A stretch of 64,000 nucleotides of DNA, from the NCBI RefSeq assembly GCF_022869865.1, contig NZ_CP094984.1, positions 124,001 through 188,000 on the forward strand. Reading direction: 5' to 3'. The number at the start of each line of letters is the position of its first letter. Positions within the stretch are counted from its first letter, which is position 1. Of this stretch, positions 3,286 to 47,354 are shown piece by piece. The notes beneath the pieces are model-generated. The model did no database searches. It was not told where the DNA came from and worked only from the letters and a program-made list of their open reading frames with translations. A program made the translations under genes and the position numbers. This DNA is from Arthrobacter zhangbolii (GTDB lineage Bacteria; Actinomycetota; Actinomycetes; Actinomycetales; Micrococcaceae).

Positions 3286-3318
3286 AACGAAGCCAGCGGC
3301 ATTGCCGCTGGCTTCGTT
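3286..3318. terminator. bidirectional intrinsic terminator
   Basis: A perfect 15-base stem AACGAAGCCAGCGGC (3286-3300) has a three-base ATT loop and the matching arm at 3304-3318. It separates the convergent ends of the membrane protein gene (3192) and ptsH (3344). The T-runs on both sides are short. Confidence 0.85.
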
Positions 3319-10927: not shown

Positions 10928-12187
10928 CTAGCCGAAAACGGCGGAGGCGACCGTGAAAATGGCCAGACCGGCCAGGGAACCCACCACGGTGCCGTTGATC
11001 CGGATGAACTGCAGGTCCTTGCCGACCTGCAGTTCAATCTTCTCCGAGGTTTCCTGCGCATCCCAGCGTTCCACCGTTTCGGTGATCACACCGGCGATGT
11101 CGCTGCGGTAGGTGCGGACCAGATAGCCGGCAGCGTCCGCAACGTAACCGTTCACCTTCGCCGCAAGCTCCGGATCATTGACCAGGCGCGTACCGAAGTC
11201 CTGCACAGCAGAGGTAAAGTTCCGGGTCAGTTCGCTCTCCGGGTCCTCCGCAGCAGTCATCAGTGCGTTCTTGATGGTGGTCCACGTCTGCGTCATCAGT
11301 TCGCGGACCCGGGGATCGTCGAGGACCTGCTCCTTCACGGCGTCGGCCTTGGCCATGGTTTTGGGGTCTTCCTGCAGGTCCCTGGCCACCCCGGTGAGGT
11401 AGTTATCCAGCGCCACACGGAGCTGGTGGTTCGGATTCTCCTGGACATCGAGCAGGAACCGCTCGGCCTGGACCTGCACCCGTTCGCCCACCAGGTCATC
11501 CAGGAACGAGGGGACCCACGACGGCGAACGTTCGGCTACCAGCCGGCTGATCACTTCGGGGTTCGCCAGCACCCAGTCGGCAAGGCTGTCCACGATCAGG
11601 TTCACCAGCTGGTGGTGGTGGCCCTCTTCAAAGACCCGCTGGGCCATCCGCCCGGCCGGCGGGCCCCACTGGGGATCCACCACATGCCGGCGGAACATCG
11701 ATTCGAGGACGTCGCGGACGGCGTCGTCATCCAGTACGCGCAGTGCACCGCGGATGGCGGCTGCGCCTTCGGTAGCCACCCGTTCGGCGCCCTCGGGCCG
11801 GGCCAGCCAGGTGCCTGCCTTCCGGGCCACCTGCATGGAGTCAAGTTTGGTCCGGATGATCTCCTCGGACAGGAAGTTCTGTTCCACGAACTGGCCCAGG
11901 GAGGCGCCGATCTGGTCCTTCTTTTCCGGGATGATGGCCGTATGCGGGATCTTGATGCCCATCGGATGCTTGAACAGCGCGGTCACGGCGAACCAGTCAG
12001 CAAGGGCGCCCACCATGCCGCCTTCGGCAGCGGCCCGGACGTACGCCAGCCACGGATACCGCTCCTGCAGGGCGAAGGCAAAAAGGAAAATCACCGCCAG
12101 GGCAATCAGCAACCCTGTCGCCAGCATTTTCATGCGGCGCAGGGCGAGGGCGCGCTCCTCGTCGGTGGGGGCTGCGACGGCGCTCAC
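10928..12187 (-). CDS. DUF445 domain-containing membrane protein
   Basis: The protein has 419 residues. A cytoplasmic start (MSAVAAPTDEERALALRRMK) is followed by a membrane segment (LLIALAVIFLFAFAL). Next comes the family hallmark AAAEGGMVGALADWFAVTALFKHPMGIKIPHTAIIP. A long helical region follows, and the C-terminus holds a second membrane helix (GTVVGSLAGLAIFTVASAVFG). DUF445 proteins are widespread in bacteria with no settled function; an envelope role is usually assumed. It is divergent from the GH15 gene, across a 184-base gap in which I see no clear signal. Confidence 0.88.
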   Translation of the reverse strand: MSAVAAPTDEERALALRRMKMLATGLLIALAVIFLFAFALQERYPWLAYVRAAAEGGMVGALADWFAVTALFKHPMGIKIPHTAIIPEKKDQIGASLGQFVEQNFLSEEIIRTKLDSMQVARKAGTWLARPEGAERVATEGAAAIRGALRVLDDDAVRDVLESMFRRHVVDPQWGPPAGRMAQRVFEEGHHHQLVNLIVDSLADWVLANPEVISRLVAERSPSWVPSFLDDLVGERVQVQAERFLLDVQENPNHQLRVALDNYLTGVARDLQEDPKTMAKADAVKEQVLDDPRVRELMTQTWTTIKNALMTAAEDPESELTRNFTSAVQDFGTRLVNDPELAAKVNGYVADAAGYLVRTYRSDIAGVITETVERWDAQETSEKIELQVGKDLQFIRINGTVVGSLAGLAIFTVASAVFG

Positions 12188-15249: not shown

Positions 15250-15290
15250 AAAACGCCGGGCCTGCCCCGTGGGGGCAGGCCCGGCGTTTT
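15250..15290. terminator. strong bidirectional intrinsic terminator
   Basis: A perfect 19-base stem (15250-15268 with 15272-15290) carries A-run and T-run ends, so it works in both directions. It separates the phosphoesterase gene from the convergent dehydrogenase gene. Confidence 0.93.
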
Positions 15291-24868: not shown

Positions 24869-24924
24869 GGGTGGAAAGACGCTGCCGTCTCCCGGCAGCC
24901 GGTCTGAACCACGATGGAGGCTAC

Positions 24925-27138
24925 ATGTCTGACAAGAGCACATCCGATCCCGACCTGCCCATTCCGGGCGCACCGGCGGCCTCGGCCCCGTCCCTGGCCG
25001 AGCCGATCGAACCCCGCGAGCCGTTGCCGCCCAAGCCGGACCAGGATGGACCGGAGACCGTGTCCCCCACCGGAGTTCCCACCGGCGCGCCGAAGTCCTC
25101 CAACGCCCAGAGCGGACGGTACCTGACCACCGCCCAGGGGGCACGGCTGCGGGATACCGACCATTCCCTCAAGGCCGGTCCTCGCGGGCCGGTACTCCTG
25201 CAGGACCACCACCTGCGCGAAAAGATCACCCACTTTGACCATGAACGCATCCCGGAGCGTGTAGTCCACGCCCGCGGTGCCGCAGCTCACGGCGTATTTG
25301 TGGCCAACGGCGCCGCAGAAGGGGTGACCCGCGCCGGTTTCCTGGCCAGGGGAACGGAAACACCGGTGTTTGTCCGCTTCTCCACGGTGTTGGGATCCCG
25401 CGGCTCCGCCGACACGGTCCGGGACACCCGGGGCTTCAGCACCAAGTTCTACACGGACGAGGGCAACTATGACCTGGTTGCCAACAACATTCCGGTCTTC
25501 TTCATCCAGGACGCCATCAAGTTCCCTGACGTGATCCACGCGGGCAAACCGCACCCGGACCGTGAAATCCCCCAGGCGCAAAGCGCCCATGACACTTTCT
25601 GGGACTTCGTCTCGCTCCACACCGAAGCGCAGCACCACACCATGTGGAATATGTCCGACCGCGGCATCCCGCGTTCCTACCGCACCATGGAAGGCTTCGG
25701 CGTCCATACCTTCCGCCTGGTCAACGCCAAGGGGGAAACCACCCTGGTGAAGTTCCACTGGAAGCCGCGTCAGGGCGTGCACTCCCTGGTCTGGGAGGAA
25801 GCACAGATCATCAACGGCATGGATCCTGATTTCCACCGCCGGGACCTGGCCGATGCCATCGAAGCAGGCGCCTTCCCGCAGTGGGATCTGGGCATCCAGG
25901 TGTTCCCGGACACCGAGGATGAAATGTTCGAGGGCATCGACCTGCTGGACCCGACGAAGCTGGTGCCCGAGGAACTGGCTCCGGTGCAGATCATCGGCAC
26001 CATGACGCTCAACGCCAACCCCACCAACTTCTTCGCGGAAACCGAGCAGGTGGCCTTCCACCCCGGCCACCTCGTGCCCGGCATCGACGTCACCAATGAT
26101 CCGCTGCTGCAGGGCCGGCTGTTCTCCTACATCGACACCCAGCTCACCCGGCTGGGCGGACCGAACTTCAGCCAGATCCCCATCAACCGCCCGCACGCCC
26201 CGGTGAACGACATGCTCCGCGACGGCTTCCACCAGGATGCCGACCATGCGGGTGTGGCCCCGTACCAGCCCAATTCCCTGGACGGCGGCTGCCCCTTTAT
26301 GGCCGGCGCCGACATGGGTGCCTTCATTGACGTTCCAGCCGAAGTGCCGGCGTCCCGGAAGGTGCGGGAAAACCCGGCCAGCTTTGATGACCACTACAGC
26401 CAGGCACGGATGTTTTTCCGCTCGCTGACCCCGGTGGAGCAGGACCACGTGGTTCAGGCCTACACCTTTGAACTGGGCAAGTGCTACGAGGAGAACATCC
26501 GGCTGCGCCAGCTCCAGTCGCTCGCCAATATCGACGCACGGCTGGCCGCAGAGGTCGCCATGGGACTGGGCCTCGAAGCACCGGAACCGGAGCTTGCCGT
26601 GGAAGACACCGCACCCAGCCCTGCCCTGAGCCAGATCGGCGGCTCCTGGCCGGTGGCCGGCCGGATAGTCGGTGTGGTGGCGGATGACACCACCGACCTC
26701 GGTGCGCTTTCCGAGGTGCTTGCCACCCTGCAGGCGGAAGGAGTGGTTCCGCTGGTAGTGGCTCCCCACGGCGGGAAGCTGGGCGGAGAGATTACCGTCC
26801 AGCGGACCTACCTGACGGCCCGTTCCACTGAGTTCGACGCCGTGGTGGTGGCGGCCTCGGGTGCTCCGGCGACCGACGCCGTCGGCAGCCTGGACGCGAA
26901 GGCCGGCAACCCGGAGGGTCATCCCTCCCTCGACCCGAGGGTGACGCTGATGCTGGGCGAAGCCTTCCGCCATGCAAAGGCCATCGGCGCCTGGGGCGAC
27001 GGCAGTTCCGTCCTGATGGCAGCAGGCATCCCCACTGACGCCCCCGGTGTTGTGACGGGGGAAGCTGCTGAGGTGACTGCCGGACTGACCGGCCTGCTGG
27101 CCGGCCACCGGGTCTGGGAGCGCACCGTCGCCGCCTAG
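24925..27138 (+). CDS. katE: large-subunit (HPII-type) catalase
   Basis: The enzyme breaks down hydrogen peroxide using heme. The 737-residue length is typical of clade II catalases. A proline-rich lead is followed by the distal histidine 115 in ERVVHARGAAAHGVF and the asparagine in YDLVANNIPVFFIQDAIKFPD. The proximal heme tyrosine is in GRLFSYIDTQLTRLGG. The C-terminal 150 residues (RIVGVVADDTTDLGALSEVLATLQ) form the extra DJ-1/PfpI-like flavodoxin domain. The ATG at 24925 has GGAGG upstream. The terminator after the gene is split by an IS element. Confidence 0.95.
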   Translation: MSDKSTSDPDLPIPGAPAASAPSLAEPIEPREPLPPKPDQDGPETVSPTGVPTGAPKSSNAQSGRYLTTAQGARLRDTDHSLKAGPRGPVLLQDHHLREKITHFDHERIPERVVHARGAAAHGVFVANGAAEGVTRAGFLARGTETPVFVRFSTVLGSRGSADTVRDTRGFSTKFYTDEGNYDLVANNIPVFFIQDAIKFPDVIHAGKPHPDREIPQAQSAHDTFWDFVSLHTEAQHHTMWNMSDRGIPRSYRTMEGFGVHTFRLVNAKGETTLVKFHWKPRQGVHSLVWEEAQIINGMDPDFHRRDLADAIEAGAFPQWDLGIQVFPDTEDEMFEGIDLLDPTKLVPEELAPVQIIGTMTLNANPTNFFAETEQVAFHPGHLVPGIDVTNDPLLQGRLFSYIDTQLTRLGGPNFSQIPINRPHAPVNDMLRDGFHQDADHAGVAPYQPNSLDGGCPFMAGADMGAFIDVPAEVPASRKVRENPASFDDHYSQARMFFRSLTPVEQDHVVQAYTFELGKCYEENIRLRQLQSLANIDARLAAEVAMGLGLEAPEPELAVEDTAPSPALSQIGGSWPVAGRIVGVVADDTTDLGALSEVLATLQAEGVVPLVVAPHGGKLGGEITVQRTYLTARSTEFDAVVVAASGAPATDAVGSLDAKAGNPEGHPSLDPRVTLMLGEAFRHAKAIGAWGDGSSVLMAAGIPTDAPGVVTGEAAEVTAGLTGLLAGHRVWERTVAA

Positions 27139-27229
27139 CCTGCGGGCCTGCGTTTCCGTACGGGAAATAGAAGAGGGGATCCCCGGCTCATGAACTGGTC
27201 CCCGAAAGTTGGACTGGCCAAATAAAAGT

Positions 27230-28036
27230 CTAGGCCGCGAGGGCCTGAGCACGGTATTGCACCGGGCTCAGGCCCTCGAGCTTTGTCGAGATACGTTCAG
27301 TGTTGTACCAGCGGATGTACTCATCCAGCTGGGCCCTCAGGGCATCGGTGTTCAGGAACCGGACCCGGTGGAAGAGTTCCTCCTTGAGGTGTCCGAAGAA
27401 GTTCTCCATCACCGCGTTGTCGTAGCAGTTGCCCTTGCGGGACATCGATTGGACCGCTCCGGCGTTCTTCAGCAGCGTCCGCCACGAGACGTGCTGATAC
27501 TGGAATCCCTGATCCGAATGCACGAGCGGCTGCGCCCCGGGCTCGAGACCGGTGAGGGCTTCACGCAGCGAGGAGTTAGTGAGCTCCAGATTCGGGGATA
27601 ACCCGATCGAGTACGAGATGATCTGCCGGTTGAAGAGGTCCATCACCGGGGAGAGGTAGAGCTTGCGGTCACCGACGCTGAACTCGGTCACGTCGGTCAC
27701 CCACTTCTGGTTCGGTGCAGCAGCTTCGAACTCCCGGTTCAGCAGATTCGGTGCCACCACGCCCTGTTCACCGCGGTAGGAGACGTAACGCTTCCTTCGC
27801 CGTACTTTGCAGACCAGCCGCAGCGAACGCATCAGCTTCAACACGGTCTTTTTCGCCACCGTCCACCCGTGCTTGAGCAGCTCAGTATGAATGCGGCGGT
27901 GCCCGTACCGGCCGTGGTTCTTCTCGAAGATCTCCCTCACGGCAGCCTTAATCTCAGCTTGCGGGTCTGGGCGCTGGAAGCGGGCCTGATGATAGAAAAA
28001 CGTCGAACGGGCCAGGCCCGCGACGTCCAGGAGCAC
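27230..28036 (-). CDS. IS3-family transposase OrfB (DDE integrase)
   Basis: The part counted from the first possible GTG start has 268 residues, but the protein is most likely made as the C-terminal part of an OrfAB fusion. The catalytic domain shows WVTDVTEF (first Asp), LVHSDQGFQYQ (second Asp) and SRKGNCYDNAVMENFFGHLKEE (Glu). An HTH_21-type region (HGRYGHRRIHTELLKHG) precedes it. The frame is open upstream of 28036 and is reached from orfA by a -1 shift at GGGAAAA (28114-28120), with no stop between. The C-terminus is LEGLSPVQYRAQALAA. Confidence 0.95.
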   Translation of the reverse strand: MLLDVAGLARSTFFYHQARFQRPDPQAEIKAAVREIFEKNHGRYGHRRIHTELLKHGWTVAKKTVLKLMRSLRLVCKVRRRKRYVSYRGEQGVVAPNLLNREFEAAAPNQKWVTDVTEFSVGDRKLYLSPVMDLFNRQIISYSIGLSPNLELTNSSLREALTGLEPGAQPLVHSDQGFQYQHVSWRTLLKNAGAVQSMSRKGNCYDNAVMENFFGHLKEELFHRVRFLNTDALRAQLDEYIRWYNTERISTKLEGLSPVQYRAQALAA

Positions 28037-28080
28037 GTCCAGCCGGTGTTCGGCCTTGAGAGCGATGACAGCGCGGACCT

Positions 28081-28569
28081 TTACGGCCGTTCCTCGTCCC
28101 TCAAGGCCTGCACTTTTCCCAGGAACGCGACCTCTGCCCGCAGACGCTCGTTCTCGCGGCGCAATCGTTGTATCTCTGACTCTGGCTGCGTCGATGCCTC
28201 AGGATTTGTCTTCGGGCGGCCCTTGGGCTTCGCGCGCAGTCCGTCTTCGCCTTCCGCCCGGTACTGACGTGCCCACTTCTCGATCAGCTGCGGAGAGGAC
28301 AGCTGGAGCTCTTTAGCCAGGGCGACTTTGCTCTCTCCAGCTTGAAATCGGCGCACGGCATCGAGTTTGAACTCGAAGGAGAACAAGCGTTTGGTTGGCT
28401 TGGCCACTAGCGTCGAACCTCCGCGAACTCTCCACCGGTCGTATAGCCGGCGGATTGCTTTCACGCGCACCCCGAGCCTTGTTGCTACGGAGTTGGGACC
28501 CCAACCGGTCTCGAACAACGCTACCGCGGCCTTGCGTTGTTCCTCGGATAACGAACTGCTCTTCTGCAA
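28081..28569 (-). CDS. IS3-family transposase OrfA (DNA-binding subunit)
   Basis: The protein has 162 residues. It holds two helix-turn-helix regions (GPNSVATRLGVRVKAIRRLYDRW and SKVALAKELQLSSPQLIEKWARQY), then a leucine-zipper-like helix (EIQRLRRENERLRAEVAFLGKVQAL). The start is TTG at 28569 with GGGGAG about six bases ahead. That ribosome-binding site lies inside a 17-bp hairpin arm. The slippery heptamer G-GGA-AAA near the end is in the correct reading phase for -1 frameshifting into orfB. Confidence 0.9.
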   Translation of the reverse strand: MQKSSSLSEEQRKAAVALFETGWGPNSVATRLGVRVKAIRRLYDRWRVRGGSTLVAKPTKRLFSFEFKLDAVRRFQAGESKVALAKELQLSSPQLIEKWARQYRAEGEDGLRAKPKGRPKTNPEASTQPESEIQRLRRENERLRAEVAFLGKVQALRDEERP

Positions 28570-28570
28570 A

Positions 28571-28625
28571 AACTGCTCCCCGAAAGTCAGAACTGATTTC
28601 TCAGTCCAACTTTCGGGGAGCAGTT
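28571..28625 (-). repeat. internal hairpin at the orfA-proximal IS end
   Basis: The arms 28571-28587 and 28609-28625 are perfect 17-base reverse complements around a 21-base loop. The outer arm is the terminal repeat itself; the inner arm is an inverted partial copy of it. The inner arm contains the GGGGAG ribosome-binding site of orfA. A transcript entering from outside would fold both arms together and hide that site. Confidence 0.8.
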
Positions 28626-28690
28626 CATCACGCCGGGGATCCCCTCTTTGGCTATGGTCCGTGTCTAACGGCGGACCCGGATCAGGTCAC

Positions 28691-30121
28691 TCAGACGCCG
28701 AGCAGCTCCGTGATCGGGCCTACGCCGAAGTACAGTGCGAAAGCTGCGGCGACCACGTACATCAGGGGATGCACTTCGCGGCCGCGGCCCTGGAAGAGGC
28801 GGATCACGGTGAAGGAGATAAACCCGGCCCCCAGGCCGTTGGCGATCGAGTAGGTGAACGGCATCAGCGCGAAGGTCAGGAAGGACGGCAGGGCCAGCCC
28901 GATGTCGTTCCAATCGATCTTGCCCACCTGCGAAACCATCAGGTAGCCCACAACCACCAGGGCGGGGGCCACGGCCTCAAACGGAACCAGGTAGATCAGC
29001 GGGGTGAGGAACATGGCCACGAGGAAGAGCAGGCCGGTCACCACGGAGGCCAGGCCGGTCCGCGCGCCTTCGCCGATACCGGCACCGGATTCCACGAAGA
29101 TCTGGTTGGAGGAAACACCGGCGCCGCCGCCTGCCACCGCACCCGCGGCATCAACCAAGAGTACACGCTCCACGTTGGGGATGTTGCCGTCCTTGTCGAT
29201 GGATCCGGCGCCGGCGGCCAGGCCCACCATGGTGCCCATGGCGTCGAAGAAGATGCTGAGCAGGATCACGAAGACCAGCAGCGAGGCGGCGATGCCGCCC
29301 AGGGTCTGGAAGGATCCGACCAGGCTGACATCGCCGATCAGGGAAAGATCGGGGGCTCCCCATTCGGGTGCGCTGGGTGTTACCAGCGACCAGCCGGTCG
29401 CAACGCCGGCGCCCTGGCTGCCCGGGCTGGCCAGCCACTCGACGAGTACGGCGAAAACAGTGGAGGCCAGGATGCCGATCAGGATGGCGCCGCGGACCTT
29501 GCGTGCCATCAGCACAATGGTCAGCAGCAGGCCGAAGACGAACACCAGGGTAGGCCAGCCGAGCAGTTCCCCTCCGTTGCCCAGGCCCAACGGAACCGTG
29601 GTGCCGGCCTCGTCCAGGTTGCGCCGGACAAAACCGGCGTTGACCAGTCCCACGAGTGTTACGAAAAGACCAATGCCCACCACAATCGCGGTTTTCAGGC
29701 TGGGCGGCACGGCACGGAATACGGCTGTCCGGAAGCCGGTCAGCACCAGGATGACCATGGCGAGGCCTGCAATGACCACCAGCCCCATCACATCCGGCCA
29801 GGTCAGGCCGTCATTGGAAGCCACAGTCACGGCCACGAAGGCATTTACGCCCAGGCCGGTGGCGATAGCGAAGGGGTGCTTGGCCCAAATGCCCATAATC
29901 AGGGTGAGGATGCCCGCAACGAGGGCCGTTCCGGCGGCAATGGCCGGCCCGGGCATGGTGTTGCCCATGGAGTCTTCGCCGCCAAGGATCAGCGGGTTCA
30001 GTACCACTATGTAACTCATCGCGAAGAAGGTGGCCAGGCCGCCGCGCACTTCGGTGGCAACGGATGAACCCCGTTTCGTGATCTCGAAGTAGCGGTCCAG
30101 CTTTGAACCTTTTTTGAGCAT
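28691..30121 (-). CDS. NCS2-family purine permease (AzgA/PbuG-like)
   Basis: The protein has 476 residues and about twelve to fourteen membrane helices. The start KLDRYFEITKRGSSVATEVRGGLATFFAMSYIVVLNPLIL is the hallmark of the AzgA-like branch that imports adenine, guanine or hypoxanthine. Further conserved parts are GLGVNAFVA, VSSNQIFVESGAGIGEGARTGLASVVTG and FIVAMF-like helices near the middle. The exact purine is not determinable. It converges on katE; the terminator it probably shared is split by the IS. Confidence 0.93.
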   Translation of the reverse strand: MLKKGSKLDRYFEITKRGSSVATEVRGGLATFFAMSYIVVLNPLILGGEDSMGNTMPGPAIAAGTALVAGILTLIMGIWAKHPFAIATGLGVNAFVAVTVASNDGLTWPDVMGLVVIAGLAMVILVLTGFRTAVFRAVPPSLKTAIVVGIGLFVTLVGLVNAGFVRRNLDEAGTTVPLGLGNGGELLGWPTLVFVFGLLLTIVLMARKVRGAILIGILASTVFAVLVEWLASPGSQGAGVATGWSLVTPSAPEWGAPDLSLIGDVSLVGSFQTLGGIAASLLVFVILLSIFFDAMGTMVGLAAGAGSIDKDGNIPNVERVLLVDAAGAVAGGGAGVSSNQIFVESGAGIGEGARTGLASVVTGLLFLVAMFLTPLIYLVPFEAVAPALVVVGYLMVSQVGKIDWNDIGLALPSFLTFALMPFTYSIANGLGAGFISFTVIRLFQGRGREVHPLMYVVAAAFALYFGVGPITELLGV

Positions 30122-47324: not shown

Positions 47325-47354
47325 CGAAAGCCCCGCAAAGCTGCGGGGCTTTCG
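47325..47354. terminator. bidirectional intrinsic terminator
   Basis: CGAAAGCCCCGCA (47325-47337) pairs perfectly with TGCGGGGCTTTCG (47342-47354) around a four-base loop. It serves purA and the convergent VOC gene. Confidence 0.88.

Follow-up and report, generated by a model that had tools for sequence, protein, structure and literature searches.

Insertion into the loops of hairpins, most of them terminator-like, by a widespread group of IS150-like IS3 elements

In the window, by which we mean the whole stretch of 64,000 nucleotides of Arthrobacter zhangbolii analysed here, an insertion sequence stands between a katE-type long catalase gene (24871-27138, + strand; PF00199, PF18011) and a convergent Xan_ur_permease gene (28691-30121, - strand; PF00860), with the two arms of an inverted repeat at its sides. 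Does the element choose such a place, and what would it then recognize? It is an IS150-like member of the IS3 family, 1,437 bp long (27191-28627), and it splits a perfect, terminator-like 17-bp hairpin: compared letter by letter, the left arm, AAGAGGGGATCCCCGGC (27171-27187), returns in reverse complement, with no mismatch, as the right arm (28632-28648). The target site duplication is TCA, with one copy in the hairpin loop (27188-27190) and the other at 28628-28630, followed by a C at 28631. When the element and one copy of the duplication are removed in silico, a 17-bp stem with the loop TCAC is left. The sequence-only reading of this DNA had claimed that the element sits exactly in the loop of a perfect hairpin, and the letters confirm it.

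Both genes of the element are on the minus strand. OrfA (28081-28569) is a helix-turn-helix protein, and OrfB (27230-28036) is an integrase-core transposase (rve, HTH_21) that matches NF033516 with 319.5 bits (cut-off 160) as well as PF00665, PF13333 and PF13276. OrfB is read in the -1 frame with respect to OrfA (28569 minus 28036 is 533, or 2 mod 3), and a candidate slippery heptamer, GGGAAAA, is found in the orfA frame at 28114-28120 on the minus strand; it would support a -1 frameshift from OrfA into OrfB. The 26-bp ends, TGAACTGGTCCCC... and TGAACTGCTCCCC..., have one difference between them; the terminal inverted repeat on the OrfB side (IRL in this analysis) is at 27191-27216 on the + strand and that on the OrfA side (IRR) at 28602-28627 on the - strand. 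The element thus has the features of the IS3 family: an rve/IS3 transposase profile, the two-frame layout with a slippery heptamer, TG...CA ends, inverted repeats and a duplication of 3-4 bp. An Rfam scan of 26800-29000 gave no match, and a sigma-70 scan found no promoter-like site. Elsewhere in the window there are four unoccupied perfect hairpins (3286-3318, 11005-11036, 15250-15290 and 47325-47354; stems of 13-19 bp, loops of 3-6), which are candidate targets.

The window holds one of five full copies that a DNA search found in the whole 3.46-Mb genome. Four are identical over 1437 bp, and are therefore recent moves, while the fifth has two differences. All five are in hairpin loops, each in a different hairpin (stem scores 17, 20, 16, 21 and 18), and in all five the insertion is at the centre of the palindrome, as for REP-targeting IS3 elements. 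The five targets do not form one repeat family: they have no common sequence, and what they share is a GC-rich composition with outer ends rich in A and T. By ORF reading, convergent genes flank three of the sites, and at the other two the genes on both sides run in the same direction. Copies of the same element in non-palindromic sites, or an empty site lacking the palindrome, had been named as the observations that would speak against loop targeting; both checks, the second in the sister species described next, went the other way.

To a large degree the hairpins can also be found where the element is absent. A search with DNA from the katE end gave a match in each of the 28 sister genomes of the genus that were searched; tblastn located the katE end in 27 of the 28 loci, and in 11 of them the fetched DNA also contains the convergent permease gene. 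All 11 of these two-gene loci have an uninterrupted hairpin in the spacer, with a stem score of 14-21 (an example is AAACAAGAAGGGATCCGC-ggcc-GCGGATCCCTTCTTGTTT), and the remaining 16 have a hairpin scoring 8-23 within 230 bases downstream of katE. For the 70-kb copy, a hairpin of at least 9 is seen in 16 of 28 sister windows and in none of the other 12; in nine of the 16 the stem can be recognised as the GGGGTGCACC type of the occupied target. Such a hairpin is present in 11 of 28 sister windows for the 2.50-Mb copy, and in 8 of 560 control windows in the same sister loci of these two comparisons. Because empty hairpins are present in sister species, the hairpin is older than the insertion, at least at the katE and 70-kb sites.

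Next, we studied the flanks of related elements. Relatives came from three sources: GTDB genomes, represented by the best 80 of 570 encoding stretches; 395 genomes of the bacterial family, 45 of which matched strongly, with no more than two places taken from each; and other searches. To place their ends we used inverted repeats, with the consensus of the window element as a guide, and duplications, blind to palindromes. The stem score is the number of matches minus twice the number of mismatches in an ungapped stem with a loop of up to 24, and the threshold is 9; the stem settings and this threshold were chosen after seeing the data, and hence several thresholds are given. An earlier stem search that allowed small loops only gave 74 of 110 at a score of at least 8, with a null of 1.7%, and under-counted the large-loop sites. 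Distinct flanks are counted as separate events, so that inherited insertions with diverged flanks would count more than once. Excluded were 46 rows in which the two ends could not be set or the flanks were short, many of them repeats of one locus or relics, and L281, which is without ends; L231 (the same site as L230, with wrong ends) and L256/L259 (a deletion derivative) were excluded by hand. Kept as misses were L263, whose 8-bp duplication is probably false, and L060, in a tandem of 32-bp REP-like units. The flanks of the deletion derivative are also terminator-like by eye.

Among the distinct relatives with a duplication, 80 of 111 have a hairpin-loop site (score of at least 9), and among all relatives, with or without a duplication, 89 of 129. 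At thresholds of 8, 10 and 12 the first count becomes 86, 73 and 54 of the 111. Joining the left flank of one copy to the right flank of another reaches the threshold in 1.6% of 5,000 swaps, and random positions in the same loci in 0.56% of 5,160, while the site in the window scores 17. The fraction of loop sites among copies with a duplication is 5/5 at 95-100% OrfB identity, 31/39 at 79-95%, 8/9 at 68-79%, 10/14 at 58-68% and 26/44 at 44-58%. The duplication is 3 bp in 83 of the 111 and 4 bp in 24. The hosts of the relatives span four phyla, and those with hairpin sites include Arthrobacter, Nocardiopsis, Corynebacterium, Rothia, Mycolicibacterium, Kluyvera, Bacillus, Planococcus and Empedobacter; in Kluyvera, all five sites are putative terminators with A/T-tracts.

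The 111 copies leave out IS150 (9), ISKpn8 (1) and ISEnfa3 (1), which were fetched as named controls and whose ends, like those of all controls, were set by a generic rule. At a score of at least 9 we find 0/9 rows for IS150, 0/1 for ISKpn8 and 0/1 for ISEnfa3; their OrfB identity of 47-50% is inside the range of the relatives, and counting them would give 80/122. Other IS3 elements from the same bacterial family reach it in 0/23 copies with a duplication (0/40 in all), and 17 of these 23 have at least 14 of 20 matching end bases. The IS150-type control sites come from E. coli records and one plasmid; among the IS150 rows the end of L314 is probably wrong, and the hokB and hokE sites are each present in two strains. 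In Kluyvera-family genomes IS150 was found in 0 of 149 at the threshold used. Five of the E. coli copies of IS150 (L310-L312, L315 and L316) are found some 75 bp upstream of genes of the hok family, namely mokC, hokE twice and hokB twice, and around the insertion the two hokE copies show a stem of 7 bp and a loop of 20-21 nt.

In a tree of OrfB with 103 clusters, all hairpin-targeting clusters are separated from 22 clusters of other IS3 elements with a branch support of 100. The window element groups with IS150, apart from the 22 other IS3 rows, and is 47% identical to IS150 and to ISKpn8 in plasmid records; IS150 and ISKpn8 are nested inside the hairpin-targeting side, beside relatives of ISEcB1. 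On this tree the trait is not clean: by majority label, 25 of the 81 clusters on the hairpin-targeting side are without it, and the loop-targeting label needs 23 changes, at least 10 of them on starred branches. Of the relatives with a duplication, 31 of 111 score below 9. Some of these misses are bulged hairpins, and others, L105, L112 and L170 among them, are without a clear palindrome. All seven copies in Pseudomonas sp. KUIN-1 score only 3-6, and by eye six of the seven are in a REP-like CGTTCC..CACGCTC palindrome; no name for these REP-type copies was found among the matches listed (30 of 1,004 plasmid records).

What do the targets have in common? The 80 hairpin sites have a median stem of 14 bp and a median loop of 6, and 57 of the stems are perfect. 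In the 54 sites with an OrfB identity of at least 58%, none of 20 columns has a fixed base, the commonest base being found in 34 of the 54, and the sequences of the duplications vary widely; since no base is fixed, the dyad itself seems to be read. A T-tract is present beside the OrfB-side arm in 49 of the 80 sites, compared with 13 of 80 further out. Further, 63 of the 80 have a T or A tract on one side or on both and 17 have none, and most target hairpins therefore look like terminators. Some are instead REP-like. Several Arthrobacter copies sit within or next to a REP-like repeat that has GTGAGDGAGCGTC, a motif with 54 and 48 occurrences in two genomes, where its reversed control has none; in the genome of the window the motif occurs 0 times. 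The two genomes are G369 and G393, of the same bacterial family as the window; there the REP-like repeat, around GTGAGAGAGCGTC, often recurs 32 bp apart and in both orientations, and it is used as a target at L148, L150, L068 and L060, the last in a tandem of 32-bp units. We also considered an offset of the insertion toward the OrfB-side arm, which 38 of 80 insertions adjoin directly; paired within sites, however, the difference is weak (42 against 27, with 11 equal), and the idea was dropped. Open frames across the joined sites (63/80, 28/31 and 22/23 open) are uninformative.

Taking the target preference, its spread over hosts and the empty sites as they are read from the genomes, we consider it probable, at about 0.8, that a widespread IS150-like clade of IS3 elements mostly picks the loops of palindromes by their dyad or hairpin shape and not by a motif. 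In most cases the palindrome would be a hairpin like that of an intrinsic terminator, placed downstream of genes, and in some a REP-like repeat. The transposase may read an extruded cruciform or a transient hairpin, and the insertion would leave the 3-4-bp duplication in the loop and part the two arms. What is read could also be the duplex, if dimers of the helix-turn-helix protein OrfA bind the palindrome as a GC-rich dyad with no extrusion, the loop then being the centre of the dyad. The stems are GC-rich with C/T-rich outer ends, and the transposases of IS1397 and ISKpn1 are reported, in the available text of PMC1525189, to set REP specificity. We find this possible but doubtful, as the 20 columns in 54 sites are without any fixed base, the targets range from GC-rich stems of Actinobacteria to AT-rich terminators of Bacillus, and flank swaps, in which the base make-up of each side is kept, give a stem in so few cases. 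Recruitment of the transposase by terminating RNA polymerase or by the nascent RNA hairpin would agree with the tracts at 63 of 80 targets and with the convergent genes at three of the five own sites (by ORF reading). It is unlikely, however, given the 17 targets without tracts and the Arthrobacter copies in or beside the GTGAGDGAGCGTC repeat, which is not an obvious terminator.

Random insertion could also be followed by the loss of all copies except those in harmless terminators, an insertion into an intergenic 3' region probably doing the least harm. This we regard as very improbable: the insertions are at the loop itself and not just anywhere in the spacer, other IS3 elements of this bacterial family give 0/23, and the copies in the genome of the window are young (0-2 differences of 1437) and still in loops in five cases of five. 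A different proposal is that the element is an ordinary REP-targeting IS3 of the IS1397/ISPsy8 type, which uses terminators only through their resemblance to REPs. According to the available text of PMC1525189, ISPsy8 enters a REP hairpin on its axis of symmetry and duplicates 3 bp, and REP-like repeats are also used by the relatives studied here. Yet the five own targets have no common sequence, the Arthrobacter REP-like motif is missing from the window's genome and the Kluyvera sites are all putative A/T-tract terminators, which makes this proposal quite improbable. In place of it, the choice of a loop by shape would include the REP cases. The idea that the element is a terminator-loop-seeking relative of the REP-type IS3 elements is strongly supported by the five own copies and by the empty hairpins of the sister species. 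What stands of the original comparison with REP elements is the targeting of palindrome loops, but the trait is wider and not specific to REPs, though 31 of 111 relatives miss the threshold.

The element also carries hairpins of its own. Its orfA-side end forms a hairpin with an internal inverted copy (28570-28626, - strand), with a run of five T at 28568-28572. As inward-reading RNA the hairpin has a predicted energy of -46.7 kcal/mol (z -8.15, with 0 of 200 shuffles as good). The T-run is at the start of OrfA and faces the permease transcript, and GGGGAG (28576-28581), a possible ribosome-binding site, is in the 3' arm just before that start. A terminator scan gave 3 sites against 1.9 expected, and this hairpin is not among them. 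The hairpin is found in 113 of 129 related copies (53/55, 24/26 and 36/48 in falling identity tiers), and in 104 related copies at least four of the six bases after it are T. In the controls it is found in 0/9 for IS150, 0/1 for ISKpn8, 0/1 for ISEnfa3 and 0/40 for other IS3 elements. Among the copies with a duplication, 77 have both the end hairpin and a target hairpin, 19 the end hairpin alone, 3 the target alone and 12 neither, and both are absent in all 34 controls. On the tree, the changes that speak independently for this link are few, 4 to 0 of 10 pairs with p 0.125.

At the other end, an 18-bp hairpin with one mismatch (27238-27278, score 15) lies inside the 3' end of orfB and faces the katE transcript, with a weak T-tract (4 T in 6) after the + strand arm. 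Of the relatives, 104 of 129 have a hairpin near the OrfB-side end, but so do 9/9 IS150 copies, and such hairpins therefore do not track loop targeting. The orfA-side hairpin may be an intrinsic terminator that serves the gene on that side in place of the split one, and the hairpins borne by the element could together take over the role of the terminator that it parts. In RNA entering from the neighbouring gene the orfA-side hairpin would, in addition, shield the OrfA start. Antisense read-through between katE and the permease gene through the split terminator, which the sequence-only reading had suggested, looks less likely because the orfA-side hairpin faces the permease gene and the orfB-end hairpin faces katE, although the T-tract of the latter is weak. 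In IS10 and IS50, an RNA hairpin encoded by the end hides the transposase start in read-through transcripts. These elements are of other families, and the hairpin of the window element differs by its T-run and by a target that is itself terminator-like.

Several known systems resemble the window element in part. ISPsy8, IS1397 and ISKpn1 share with it the IS3 family and insertion in palindromes (PMC1525189). In the available text of that paper their reported targets are REPs, while the clade of the window element uses, besides REP-like repeats, single unrelated terminator-like hairpins; the window element also carries a terminator-like end hairpin of its own. The insertion of ISPsy8 in REP hairpins, as described in that text, fits a special case of loop targeting. 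IS150 of E. coli has the same organisation, an OrfB identity of 47-49% and a place in the same clade; in contrast, it is without the orfA-side hairpin (0/9) and its rows are in no hairpins at the threshold (0/9). ISEcB1, present in E. coli B and BL21 records, is 92% identical to a Kluyvera relative and has the orfA-side hairpin, but with about 52% OrfB identity to the window element it is a separate lineage. It stands in the yfbM/nuoN spacer, where an 11-bp stem with one mismatch scores 8, just under the threshold; further ISEcB1 records repeat the site of L230 and do not count as separate insertions. Another IS3 element, L235 in E. coli N1420, is in five places of that genome; the fetched copy is between convergent gloC and aspC with a stem score of 8, and elsewhere among 5,426 genomes only a 7% fragment in one other was found. 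Group IIC introns are mobile elements that have intrinsic terminators as targets. They differ in using RNA-based retrohoming beside the hairpin, with no DDE transposase cutting in the loop. Insertion of IS3 elements into REP loops is thus already known; general targeting of terminator loops by IS3 elements was not found among the matches listed in the literature searched, a scope that most subscription journals and the comments in ISfinder lie outside.

When IS3 elements insert in REP loops, this has so far been taken to mean that they recognize particular repeats. Should the rule be the loop of a terminator-like hairpin, the REP cases become a special case of it, and the clade would have a DDE transposase that may sense the shape of DNA. 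The sites, together with the terminator-like hairpin that the elements carry, suggest a way of landing that leaves host genes unbroken. Targeting of tRNA genes and of attTn7 are safe-landing strategies, and loop targeting, if true, would be comparable to them. For annotation, such elements mark and physically split the ends of transcripts, and they carry terminator-like hairpins of their own.

There are 18 copies longer than the standard form (1.6-3.9 kb), and 13 of them are in hairpin loops (11 of the 14 with a duplication). The genomes G337 and G352 each have two long copies of the same length at different sites, all four in loops; these pairs suggest that the long form transposes as a whole. 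The cargo is between orfB and the end of the element. It encodes a sulfate-permease/STAS protein in L096, a pyridine-nucleotide-disulphide (FAD) oxidoreductase with a TetR regulator in L065, and a GNAT acetyltransferase in L161, with the same protein in L135; the two cargo proteins tested from L063 and L140 had no Pfam match. We give even odds to the broader proposal that a multi-phylum DDE clade reads hairpin shape, supplies a terminator built from its own end and an inverted copy of it, silences OrfA, and in its cargo versions delivers genes, such as those for a transporter, an oxidoreductase with TetR, and GNAT, to the safe ends of host genes. Passenger genes are also seen in L137 and others, and by eye L075 and L152 contain apparent nested insertion sequences.
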